DNA of 64,000 bases, from contig JAFWIX010000001.1 of the NCBI GenBank assembly GCA_017514665.1, positions 124,001 to 188,000 on the forward strand, read 5' to 3'. Below are positions 57,909-61,293 of this stretch, in pieces. Position 1 is the stretch's first letter; the number at the start of each line of letters is the position of its first letter. The position numbers and the translations under genes are program-made. Under the pieces are notes generated by a model, which was given only the letters and a program-made list of their open reading frames with translations, was not told the DNA's origin and did no database searches. This stretch comes from Candidatus Saccharimonadota bacterium. Lineage in GTDB: Bacteria; Patescibacteriota; Saccharimonadia; Saccharimonadales; Saccharimonadaceae.

Positions 57909-57984
57909 GGGGGCGTAGCTCAGTGGTTAGAGCAGTCGGCTCATAACCGATTGGTCGCTGGTTCAAGTCCAGCCGCCCCCACCA
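57909..57984 (+). tRNA. tRNA with anticodon CAT (Met elongator or Ile2)
   Basis: A 76-base cloverleaf: acceptor GGGGGCG/CGCCCCC, anticodon stem GTCGG/CCGAT around CTCATAA, T arm GCTGGTTCAAGTCCAGC, CCA encoded. It is not the initiator, since position 1-72 is paired. The variable loop and T arm closely resemble what I recall of bacterial tRNA-Ile2, whose CAT is modified by TilS to read ATA; elongator Met is the other option. Identity is unresolved. Confidence 0.9.
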
Positions 57985-58010: not shown

Positions 58011-59090
58011 TTAGTCACCATCTTCGATTTGTTCTTTTAATGTTGCTATTTCGTCTTGGTCCAGTGTGGCTATAAGATTTCTAACAAATTCTTCTTCAGT
58101 AGAACTTGCTTCTTTTGCGGCTTGCAATTTGCTTTCGTAATTGCCTAGATATTTCGTGATTCGTCCTCCAACTTCTCCCGTTTTAAAGAAAGACTTTGCT
58201 TCTCCGAGAAGGGCATCTCTTTCTTGTTCTATTCGTCCAGAAACAGGATTATCTCGATTTGCCCAAAATTCTTTAACGTTTTCAGAAACTTCTCTGTCAT
58301 CATGTCTATCAGTAGGTTCGCCGTAAATATCTGTTCGAATCAAATAAATCGGTATTTCAAAAAACTCCGCTGCTTTTTTAGCCTCATCACTTATTACATT
58401 CCGTGAATCCCCAAAAACAATTATTGAATCTGGTTTGGTTTTGCCATTAATCTCTACTTCATTCCAGGGGGTTAAGCTATCCATAGTGCCAGTAGATTCT
58501 AACAATTCATCTGGGCTCATCACTTGGTCTTTGTATTGCCCCATTTCACCAATATCTCTTAGTACTCCGTGGTCAGCTGGCGCTGCACTTAAGAAATCAC
58601 CGTCATTTAGGTTGTTGAAGCCAAATATCAGTCCATTTCTGTCAAACAAATTTATTTTTTTATCTGAGATTAACGATGTTGAAATATAGTCTCTAGATGT
58701 ATTGACCCACCTTTCTAAATCAATGCTCTTCGGTTGATCCCCGAGCGATTGTCCTACTGCACCAATAACGGAAACGAGCATTTTAAAGTCTGAACCAACA
58801 AATTCATATCCATCAATTGTTTTACCGTCAACTTCGACAGGGAATTTTATCACGCCTTCTTGATCGGCTTCGTAAGCCCTAGTTAATTCGTTCTGGTATT
58901 GTTTTTCTGCTCCCGATCTAGCTACTTCTCTATTATTATTTTTGATATCCTTATCTGTCTCCAAAGATATAGCTTCTCTCCTAAAATTAGGGAACTCACC
59001 TGGATTTTGCCATGACGTGCCTTCGGGCGGTAATGGCTCGATGTTGTCTGTCTGCCCAGATCGATCAATCGTTCTTTCGTGATTATTCAT
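58011..59090 (-). CDS. Unknown soluble protein, possible ADP-ribosyltransferase-like
   Basis: A 359-residue soluble, acidic protein without signal peptide or helices. The middle has RDYISTSLISDKKINLF (about residues 145-161) and, later, PWNEVEINGK followed by PDSIIVFGDS and FEIPIYLIRTDIYG. An STS motif followed by an ExE (E-V-E) is the order seen in R-S-E ADP-ribosyltransferases, but I cannot confirm the upstream arginine or the fold. The N-terminus is polar and looks disordered; the C-terminus is coiled-coil-like. It flanks the AT-rich islet, with another unknown protein on the other side. It is leaderless-style, nine bases from TATAAT. Confidence 0.6.
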   Translation of the reverse strand: MNNHERTIDRSGQTDNIEPLPPEGTSWQNPGEFPNFRREAISLETDKDIKNNNREVARSGAEKQYQNELTRAYEADQEGVIKFPVEVDGKTIDGYEFVGSDFKMLVSVIGAVGQSLGDQPKSIDLERWVNTSRDYISTSLISDKKINLFDRNGLIFGFNNLNDGDFLSAAPADHGVLRDIGEMGQYKDQVMSPDELLESTGTMDSLTPWNEVEINGKTKPDSIIVFGDSRNVISDEAKKAAEFFEIPIYLIRTDIYGEPTDRHDDREVSENVKEFWANRDNPVSGRIEQERDALLGEAKSFFKTGEVGGRITKYLGNYESKLQAAKEASSTEEEFVRNLIATLDQDEIATLKEQIEDGD

Positions 59091-59105: not shown

Positions 59106-59273
59106 TAATATTTTTAGTTTCTCTTGCAGACTTTCTCTGTATATTGTTAAAACCTGGTAAATTAAGCCCCACCAAAACGTATATAATTCAGCATTTTCGC
59201 CGATTTTTTAGTAGTAAATTTCTGTTAAATACCTCGTAAGTCCTAGAGTGCTATTTTGTACCAATTTTACACA

Positions 59274-59299
59274 AAAAATGCGCCCAAAAGCGCATTTTT
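59274..59299. terminator. Bidirectional terminator at the islet edge
   Basis: AAAAATGCGC and GCGCATTTTT form a perfect ten-base stem with a six-base loop and A/T flanks on both sides. It marks the left edge of the foreign AT-rich stretch. The 240 bases between the 359-residue gene and this hairpin hold no other recognisable feature. Confidence 0.7.
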
Positions 59300-59330
59300 A
59301 CCCTGATAGAATCGTCTGTTAATACCCTAA

Positions 59331-59542
59331 ACAATACATAGCGACTACGATCATATGGGAGAAGCAATTAATTTAGTTGAAACCTTTAAAGTAGAGAAAG
59401 TAATCTTTAATTGTGGAGAGTTTAATGATTTAGAAAAAAATTTATAAAAGTATTAGATAAAAAGAAGATTAGGTATTATTCATGCATTAAAGAATTAATT
59501 ACAGATAATAACAAATTATATAAATTAAGAAAAATAGATTAA
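59331..59542 (+). pseudogene. Relic of a metallo-beta-lactamase-fold protein
   Basis: Translated from 59331 the sequence reads TIHSDYDHMGEAINLVETF then VEKVIFNCGEFNDLE, with the H-x-D-x-D-H zinc motif of the metallo-beta-lactamase fold as in ComEC-type hydrolases. A run of seven A after GAA shifts the frame near 59433; adding one A restores KFIKVLDKKKIRYYS through KLRKID and a stop. Both ends of the parent gene are missing. Codons are AT-rich (AGA, ATA, TTA), unlike neighbours. It is a decayed transferred fragment; sequencing error at the A run is possible but would not restore the missing ends. Confidence 0.65.
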
Positions 59543-59577
59543 AGATCGAGACTTGTAATCCTTAGGGAGGAGTAGAT

Positions 59578-59766
59578 ATGAATTATATTGATGAAAATAT
59601 AAAGACTACAGATGAAAATGATACGATATGAATTATTATTTGTAAACAAGATAATGAATATGTTATAGAAAATTGTTTAGATGAAAGAATTGTTGTTAGA
59701 GAACATGAATCAGTGTTATATAATAATAAAAGAAATGAGAGATATTTATGGATTATGAAATTATAA
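59578..59766 (+). pseudogene. Relic of a DUF1016 (YhcG-type) nuclease, 3' end
   Basis: From 59578 the frame reads MNYIDENIKTTDENDTI, then TGA, then IIICKQDNEYVIENCLDE and RIVVREHES. This matches, by memory, the C-terminal part of DUF1016/PDDEXK proteins, where the motif is TIGIIICK; the TGA stands where glycine (GGA) is expected. The catalytic portion is missing. GGGAGGAG before the ATG may be chance, since that methionine is internal in the family. The 3' end overlaps the start of the VanY-like gene. Confidence 0.6.
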
Positions 59767-60341
59767 TAAATAAAAACAAATGTATAAAAAATGAAGAATT
59801 ACCAAAAAAACTAGTTGCTATTGGTAAAAATGAACATCCAACTATTTCGTTTGAAAATGAAACTGATGATATATTATTAGAGGAAACGGCTGCATTATTT
59901 TTTATCAAAATGATGAATGATTTTAATAGTAGCCATATTAATAAATTAATTCCAGATAGTGGATATAGAACAATTGAAAGACAAAAAAGATTATTAAAAT
60001 ACTATTATGATAGAGATGGTGAAGAAGCATTTTCATATGTAGCTCCACCAAGATCATCAGAACATCATACGGGTTTAGCCATTGATATTGCTTTGATTAT
60101 TAACGGAAAATATACGGATGATATTACTGGAGAAGAAGAAGAAATAATAGATTTACAGTCTATTTGCTATAAATATGGATACATATTAAGATATCCAAAA
60201 GGTAAAGAAGAGATTACAGGTTATAAATATGAACCTTGGCATTTTCGTTTTGTAGGATTGAATTTGGCAAAAAGAATTCATGAAAGTGGACTGACATTAG
60301 AAGAAATAAAACAACTAAAATATGTTAAAAAGTTAAAATAA
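59748..60341 (+). CDS. VanY-like D-alanyl-D-alanine carboxypeptidase (M15B), foreign composition
   Basis: A 197-residue zinc peptidase: DSGYRTIERQKRLL, SSEHHTGLAIDIALI (zinc ligands in the H-x6-D segment) and YEPWHFRFVG with the last histidine. M15B enzymes trim D-Ala from peptidoglycan peptides. There is no signal peptide, so it would act inside unless exported otherwise. The reading frame is intact, but AGA, ATA and TTA codons dominate and GC is far below the neighbours, pointing to recent transfer from an AT-rich donor, probably Firmicutes-like. The ATG lies inside the DUF1016 relic, with only a weak GAGAG upstream. Confidence 0.85.
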   Translation: MDYEIIINKNKCIKNEELPKKLVAIGKNEHPTISFENETDDILLEETAALFFIKMMNDFNSSHINKLIPDSGYRTIERQKRLLKYYYDRDGEEAFSYVAPPRSSEHHTGLAIDIALIINGKYTDDITGEEEEIIDLQSICYKYGYILRYPKGKEEITGYKYEPWHFRFVGLNLAKRIHESGLTLEEIKQLKYVKKLK

Positions 60342-60434
60342 ATATAGAAAGGTTAACGAACTATTATATAGATAGCACTTTTTATAGATTAATTTCATTC
60401 GACTTACTTTTTGACAATCACCACATGGAGACTA

Positions 60435-61214
60435 TTACCAATCGGCATCATCCCAGCCATCGACGGCGTCATCTATATTATCCTCTGGTTCGCTACCTTC
60501 CGTATTAGTGCGTGTAAATCCAAATGGATTATTCTCGTCAAATGCCTCATGCCTTTTCTTTGTTTGTTCTTGCACTTTTGCTAATCGTTCATCAAGCTCT
60601 TTTTTAAAATCTCCAGTAATATTTGGTTCAAAATTTGGGTTGAGCTCAACTTGCCCAGTCTCTGAATTGTAATTTCCAATTATAAAACGCCTGTCAATAT
60701 AATTTGTCGCTTGACCATTTTTATCCTCATGCTCAGTAAAGTATGCCTGCGTTCGTTCACTTCCAACTTCCGTATATCCATGGTGGTAATCGAGAGGGAA
60801 ACGCATTAATATAACATTCTTTGCGCCTCGATGTGGCCAATTATCCAGCTTCTCTTTCATTTTCTGAAAATCTAGCCTACCTTCCATCGAGCTCCAAAGA
60901 CCAACCGTATTGTCAGTTAAATCTGTTGAGCCGACCACTTCATTACCCCTGTTCATACTAACCATATTCCCCAGTGATTCAAAGCCCTTTACGCCTTCGT
61001 CAAAAATACTCTCAACAACTTCATGACTATTTCCCGCCGAGGCCGTACCGTGCCCACTAATCATTGTATTTTCAAAACTACAAAGATTAGCGATTTCTTC
61101 TAATTTTACAAACTTTTTCTCGCCAGCAAACTCTGGAACACTCTTTAGGTATTCTTCACCCCAAGCGGAATCGTCATTTTGTTGTTCTGCATTTGATGAA
61201 ATAATTTCGTTCAT
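60435..61214 (-). CDS. Unknown soluble protein, possible H-type ADP-ribosyltransferase-like
   Basis: A 259-residue acidic soluble protein. It has MISGHGTASAG then VVESIFDEGVKGFESL, resembling the HGT...I..G(L) start of PARP/KptA-type ADP-ribosyltransferases, followed by NWPHRGAKNVILMRFPLDY and YIDRRFIIGNYN. This is pattern resemblance only. The C-terminal 60 residues are acidic and likely disordered. AAAGGAGG precedes the ATG, so unlike its partner at 58011 it is a leadered gene. The two unknown proteins bracket the AT-rich islet. Confidence 0.6.
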   Translation of the reverse strand: MNEIISSNAEQQNDDSAWGEEYLKSVPEFAGEKKFVKLEEIANLCSFENTMISGHGTASAGNSHEVVESIFDEGVKGFESLGNMVSMNRGNEVVGSTDLTDNTVGLWSSMEGRLDFQKMKEKLDNWPHRGAKNVILMRFPLDYHHGYTEVGSERTQAYFTEHEDKNGQATNYIDRRFIIGNYNSETGQVELNPNFEPNITGDFKKELDERLAKVQEQTKKRHEAFDENNPFGFTRTNTEGSEPEDNIDDAVDGWDDADW

Positions 61215-61241: not shown

Positions 61242-61293
61242 TTTTTATACGCTGTTAATACCTGTCCAATTCGCCCCCACCATCCGAAATTCA

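Follow-up and report, generated by a model that had tools for sequence, protein, structure and literature searches.

An AT-rich islet in a Saccharibacterium genome, most probably a mobile gene cassette of a comEC-targeted serine recombinase system of gut Bacilli

The islet and its surroundings

The DNA analysed here, a stretch of 64,000 nucleotides referred to as the window, belongs to a 670-kb Saccharimonadales draft genome of 10 contigs and 95.7% completeness. Between two resident genes it carries an islet with a frameshifted metallo-beta-lactamase fragment, a DUF1016 relic containing one in-frame TGA and an open gene for a 197-aa peptidase (Table 1), all of which had been recognised in an earlier, sequence-only reading. 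The comparison with intact relatives, which possess the Pfam domains Competence and Lactamase_B, showed that the fragment, frameshifted as described, is the C-terminal domain of ComEC, and that the DUF1016 relic, taken for a gene end, includes the start of the gene as well. The borders, previously placed at 59300 and 60345, are located at 59342 and 60428; the former right border omitted the 34-nt site at 60397-60430, for which the chance expectation in the window is 0. The crossover dinucleotide would be AG at 59340-59341 and GG at 60427-60428.

Table 1. Features of the islet and its flanks (positions in the window)
Feature	Position	Strand	Evidence and remarks
Left resident gene, no known family	58011..59090	-	
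Host flank, ending with pseudo-attB left half (AACAATACATAG)	59311..59341	+	59200-59333 80% to G025; AAACAATgCATgG.. in G006
Inserted cassette, complete	59342..60428	+	1087 bp; flanks uninterrupted in relative G006 (AAACAATGCATGGAGGCTATCCCCAATCAGCATC); inner ends are comEC attB right half and phage attP left half
comEC 3'-end copy, first part, starting at codons (G)DYDHMGEAINLV, 1-nt frameshift	59342..59521	+	88% nt identity to G171 comEC
comEC final codons and stop (..NRLKIETCNP*), joined across ~340-nt deletion	59522..59565	+	blastn of 59522-59596 to L155 4770-4696 (81%), against 59336-59521 ending at L155 5111
yhcG/DUF1016 relic, start region fused to gene end across ~730-nt deletion	59578..59727	+	59576-59727 83% to end of intact L149 gene; start region matches L155 and L147
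In-frame TGA in yhcG/DUF1016 relic	59629-59631	+	ATG of relic at 59578
Intact cargo, 197-aa M15B D,D-carboxypeptidase (VanY family)	59748..60341	+	PF02557 E=7.6e-30; 72% aa / 78% nt to Tb.RUG.455
Cassette 3' end preceding half-site	60342..60396	+	60335-60431 77% to same position in L155; 60353-60435 81% in L147
Phage attP left half-site ATTCGACTTACTTTTTGACAATCACCACATGGAG	60397..60430	+	34/34 identical to site directly behind large serine recombinase, IMG/VR phage contig L162
Host flank, pseudo-attB right half, running into stop codon of next gene	60429..60437	+	AGACTATTACCAATCGGCATC vs G006 AGGCTATCCCCAATCAGCATC
Right resident gene, no known family	60435..61214	-	Same-genus relatives 57-66% aa; used to locate empty site

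The GC content at 59339-60432 was 0.251, the minimum among 303 other windows of the same length in the 64 kb being 0.313; for the whole genome the comparison is about 40% against 25% in the islet. The tetranucleotide distance between the islet and the rest of the window was 0.61 (maximum of 0.60 among the 303 same-length windows), and that between the islet and the Bacilli donor loci described below was 0.23. Moreover, arginine is encoded by AGA in 7 of 8 cases in the peptidase gene vanY and by CGT or CGC in 37 of 45 in the neighbour genes. The GC and tetranucleotide profiles, proposed earlier as a check, and the AGA-type codon use confirm an AT-rich islet unlike its surroundings, and the two relics and the intact M15B peptidase are present as described.

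The islet was aligned with donor loci by piecewise blastn of its separate parts. It was found that about 340 nt of comEC are lost at the joint 59521|59522 and about 730 nt of yhcG between two copies of the repeat ATGAATTA, which marks both ends of that deletion. Judged from these alignments, the relics arose by two internal deletions in one cassette; with the frameshift and the TGA they make up the decay that had been suspected earlier. A terminator-like match is absent from the 3' end of this copy (60342-60396).

Outside the islet, the repeat GTTAAnACCTGnnnAATTnnGCCCCACCA at 59146-59174 and 61254-61282 closes two one-gene units beside tRNA-Met (57909-57984, 3' end CCCCCACCA). This repeat is present in 52 of 90 same-genus genomes, in up to 7 copies with a chance expectation of 0. 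It appears to mark a native system of its own, distinct from the islet, in which one-gene units are inserted where tRNA genes end.

Relatives of the islet genes

The best relative of the peptidase, 72% identical over the full length, is encoded by the rumen MAG Bacillales bacterium Tb.RUG.455 (L002; genome G060), and the runners-up (41-45% aa) are mostly from Bacilli. The corresponding DNA match of 78% extends over 587 nt and begins 11 nt upstream of the start codon. The same MAG also holds the comEC tail, at 80%, and 374 genomes in a sample of 386 from its family match the islet, with maxima of 88% for this fragment and 83% for the DUF1016 end. The best DNA relatives of every islet part, including all three genes, fall in this one family of gut Bacilli, in agreement with the AT-rich Firmicutes-like donor postulated from composition. 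The size of its genomes (0.4-1.9 Mb) and their AT-rich DNA suggest that the family belongs to the RF39-like gut groups. The exact vanY cassette did not turn up in the Bacilli; the vanY of Tb.RUG.455 is close to the end of its contig, and no half-site could be recognised there. In plasmid and phage records the islet matched vanY sequences only, all of them short or distant.

Near-identical 112-aa genes occur in the rumen MAG at L002 2708-3046 and L143 89-427, one directly behind comEC and the other two genes past the vanY relative; the vanY locus of this genome may be linked to a comEC array. Three M15-type peptidase genes in tandem were noted close to ribosomal protein genes in another of the Bacilli (G439, L158 2033-4782), and a same-genus Saccharibacterium (G007, L083) contains a 43%-identical peptidase at a different locus, with an in-frame TAA in the open frame.

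The islet peptidase matched PF02557 with 103.8 bits against a cut-off of 25. The motifs SEHHTGLAIDI and EPWHFRF are present, the M15B motifs being intact, and the PDB relatives include YodJ (4ox3). The protein shares the family profile and the zinc-site motifs with VanY and VanXY; however, it remains under the NCBIfam cut-offs, equivalog or exception, for vanXY (115.6 of 250 bits), vanY and LdcB, and no van cluster was found round it, so there is no reason for a resistance-gene label. The likeliest function, if the gene is expressed, is the predicted trimming of terminal D-Ala from peptidoglycan stem peptides. A promoter scan of the islet stayed at chance level. Because vanY has kept the donor's codon use, it could just as well be a recently acquired passenger that lies idle.

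Cassettes at comEC in Bacilli

A full comEC is located after a comEA-like gene in these Bacilli, and the islet fragment corresponds to its 3' end. Further copies of this end follow behind comEC as direct repeats, 80-88% identical across species, each with a conserved site before it and other genes after it. The typical unit consists of the comEC 3' end, yhcG (DUF1016, PDDEXK) or dinD (NCBIfam NF008573, above cut-off), a variable cargo and the site. In the first 1 kb behind 63 inspected copies of comEC or its tail, a yhcG start was seen in 21 cases, dinD in 12 and neither in 30, the companion being frequent without being universal; PADLOC flagged both as candidate families only. The cargo includes genes for NUDIX, C39-like peptidase, S51 peptidase, Fic, MFS transporter, HD, DUF488-like, DUF952, DUF218 and unknown proteins. 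Successive sites are 0.6-4.4 kb apart, with about 2 kb as the most frequent distance, and the commonest site form, ATTCGACTTACTTTTTGACAATCACCACATGG, runs straight into the comEC codons GA(C/T)TA(C/T)GATCATATGGG. Array junctions, 44 in number, were detected in 40 of 372 family genomes, and also in 23 of 259 genomes drawn from the order, which are largely the same genomes. Only 5 of 359 genomes contain close recombinases, one or more of which occupy another target, and arrays therefore seem to persist after the recombinase is gone.

The islet has the order comEC tail, yhcG, vanY, half-site, which is the native order of the donor cassettes. Its left inner end is a comEC 3'-end copy from (G)DYDHMG, starting CGACTACGATCATATGGGAGAAGC (59342-59565), the yhcG relic is the companion and vanY the cargo, and the right end is the exact phage attP half-site. 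It differs from the native units in its position, not behind comEC but at an intergenic pseudo-site in a Saccharibacterium.

Recombinase and attachment sites

The exact 29-nt core of the half-site was found in 2 IMG/VR contigs. One of them, L162, represents a temperate gut phage. Its recombinase of 473 aa ends 24 nt from the site and is composed of Resolvase, Recombinase and zinc-ribbon domains; it is an integrase according to PHROG, and its relatives include CcrB, among the best NCBIfam matches, and XisF. The site itself reads as a putative palindromic attP, ATTCGACTTACTTTTTGACAATCACCACATGGAGGTATGTGGTTAGTAAGTCGAAT. Recombinase relatives at 65-69% have, in the same place, differing inverted repeats round the same CCACATGG core. 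The int-attP arrangement, in which a large serine recombinase of ~470 aa on phages of these Bacilli is followed immediately by the attP, recurs in three further viral contigs, and one contig is in the integrated (attL) state, with ..LIITHG| followed by the attP right half.

The bacterial genomes G266, G250 and G344 contain comEC cut at ..LTHG|, ..LTQG| and ..ITQG|, with a close recombinase right behind. A prophage of about 38 kb extends in G266 from attL in comEC to attR, where the comEC tail resumes; its genes follow the usual order, and those of large-terminase, portal and tail size are named presumptively. These junctions show, as far as genome sequences can tell, that the recombinase family splits comEC at H-G|D-Y-D-H-M-G (THG|DYDHMG). 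Both hallmarks of a large serine integrase were thus encountered, the three-domain recombinase adjoining a palindromic attP on L162 (not in the window), and attL together with attR in the target gene in the G266 prophage. The scan of IMG/VR for the full half-site::comEC junction gave 0 hits and that for the comEC tail protein 0 confirmed ones, and no phage with a cassette was seen.

In the same family of Bacilli, a serine recombinase with 48% identity (L204 1474-2904) interrupts an apparent ABC-transporter ATPase gene (..GFIGENGA|), and a sister recombinase group may target a Walker-A motif instead of comEC. The genome G344 appears to combine an array (L210 1-4775; tail-dinD-cargo-tail-yhcG-cargo-half-site-tail) with a recombinase behind a cut comEC head on another contig (L209 6754-8157); this may be a phage integrated ahead of its own array.

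Insertion in the Saccharibacterium

The same-genus relative G006 has the uninterrupted target AAACAATGCATGGAGGCTATCCCCAATCAGCATC (short form CATGGAGGCTA). In the window, AAACAATACATAG precedes the cassette and AGACTATTACCAATCGGCATC follows it, and an empty site of this species would be expected to read AACAATACATRGAGACTATTACC; G006 contains the corresponding host sequence without the cassette, and no host bases were lost relative to it. The alignment with G025 runs up to 59333, and the islet is absent. Intact islet genes, which would have spoken against the earlier reading had other Saccharibacteria carried them at this locus, were not encountered in the three same-genus relatives that share a flanking gene; all three lack the islet, G006 being the one with the uninterrupted target. 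The target resembles the comEC attB only in CATGGAG-CTA, about 10 bp, as expected of a pseudo-site, and the left junction of the islet is CATAG, not CATGG. Among 392 Saccharimonadales genomes the half-site was found in this one only. The genome possesses no close relative of the phage recombinase, only distant serine recombinases with 26-34% identity.

At the level of sequence it is shown that the islet shares its parts, their order and both ends with native cassettes and sits in a short look-alike of their target. It is most probably one precisely bounded mobile gene cassette of the comEC-targeted large-serine-recombinase system of small-genome gut Bacilli. A different course would be transformation followed by illegitimate end-joining, with no site-specific recombinase involved, and it is favoured by the natural competence of Saccharibacteria, which transform via their own ComEC (PMC10633639), and by the lack of a recombinase near the phage type in the genome; however, both ends coincide with the att junctions that bound native cassettes, nothing is missing from the 34-nt half-site, and relative to G006 the host has lost no bases, a result which randomly formed ends would not give, and this course is improbable. 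The draft state of the genome, in 10 contigs, might have allowed an assembly chimera with a fragment of a co-occurring Bacillus-group genome, but the host sequence, set against G006, picks up again exactly at the base where it broke off, and the ends are att half-sites, where a chimera would have no cause to begin or finish; an artefact is very improbable.

Homologous recombination between copies of the comEC tail, by which cassettes may be passed on within the Bacilli and for which the identity of these direct repeats across species would provide the substrate, is hardly credible at an intergenic Saccharibacterium site that has about 10 bp in common with the cassette. Just as hard to credit is the earlier proposal that the donor segment entered in several pieces. 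The nearest donor MAG does have its vanY and comEC-tail relatives on different contigs, but the parts of the islet are in donor order and orientation between two recombination half-sites, the succession comEC tail-yhcG-cargo-half-site is the standing one of intact cassettes in other donors, and the fragmentation is explained by the two internal deletions. The sum of 1087, ~340 and ~730 nt, ~2.16 kb, is the usual size of an intact cassette and argues against entry in pieces.

For the preferred insertion by a recombinase the following course is conceivable. A phage integrated at the comEC attB of Bacilli would sit ahead of existing cassettes, and its excision between attL and a farther attR would rejoin comEC to a later tail and carry off the intervening cassette. 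The reverse steps in the next host would leave the cassette behind, comEC being restored by the cassette's own tail. Both steps at the pseudo-site of the Saccharibacterium, or the direct insertion of a cassette circle, would give the observed junctions; a recombinase of the L162 type, or one of the same specificity, may have inserted the cassette as such a circle or behind a phage that later excised via the cassette's inner site. The DNA may have entered by natural transformation, by stray phage infection or by uptake combined with the recombinase. Whether before the cassette entered or afterwards, the two deletions together with the frameshift and the stop would have ruined yhcG and the comEC tail, which is of no use at a distance from comEC, vanY remaining open. 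No IMG/VR contig carries a comEC-tail cassette, so that the vector step is unobserved, and as the genome also has no close recombinase, the transfer route is a model.

It is also tempting to propose, as a tentative reading almost as likely to hold as not, a serine-recombinase counterpart of the integron in gut Bacilli, with comEC as the fixed docking site, comEC-targeting phages that supply the recombinase and ferry cassettes, cassettes that restore the displaced comEC 3' end, and delivery across phyla, here into a Saccharibacterium.

Comparison with known systems and significance

Prophages with large serine integrases that split a gene include the comK phages of Listeria. Another is SP-beta in spsM (PMC4191935). 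The system described here is like both in that a serine-integrase phage splits a gene which excision would rejoin; it differs in the gene split, comEC, whose product is the DNA-uptake channel, and in the small, phage-gene-free cassettes left in arrays beside it. The islet cassette itself contains only the comEC tail, yhcG and vanY, without the structural or lysis genes of a prophage.

The staphylococcal and enterococcal chromosome cassettes (SCC/ECC) with their ccr recombinases are already known (PMC6222049). They resemble the present system in that their large serine recombinase belongs, broadly, to the same family, that they insert within a conserved gene or at its 3' end, and that they form tandem elements between att sites. 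An SCC is recognised by a ccr carried on the element and by rlmH as the target, whereas the present cassettes, 0.6-4.4 kb in size, hold no recombinase, which resides on phages, carry a copy of the target 3' end, and are inserted in comEC or, here, at a pseudo-site. Integron cassettes, too, are short tandem units, often with one cargo gene each, at a fixed chromosomal site and with the recombinase outside the cassette. In contrast to IntI and the attC hairpins of integrons, the recombinase adjoining the identical attP is of the serine, not the tyrosine, type, the sites correspond in sequence to attP/attB halves, and the units include the end of comEC, in many cases together with yhcG or dinD.

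In the open-licence literature no paper was found that links comEC with a large serine recombinase or Saccharibacteria with a serine recombinase, or that describes cassettes with comEC ends or such a cassette in Patescibacteria. On this basis comEC as the target, cassettes with comEC ends and the occurrence of one in Patescibacteria appear to be new; known from earlier work are large serine recombinases as such, prophages that split genes, and the SCC/ECC cassettes.

As a cassette of this system, the islet represents a gene transfer between phyla that bears the stamp of its mechanism, and it exposes an array-forming cassette system in comEC, the DNA-uptake channel, within a large group of gut bacteria of which most members are uncultured. 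Since comEC is split in lysogens and whole in array carriers, phage integration, competence and cargo, including candidate defence genes, are tied together in one locus. The route by which Patescibacteria gain genes from bacteria that do not normally host them thereby becomes a testable question.
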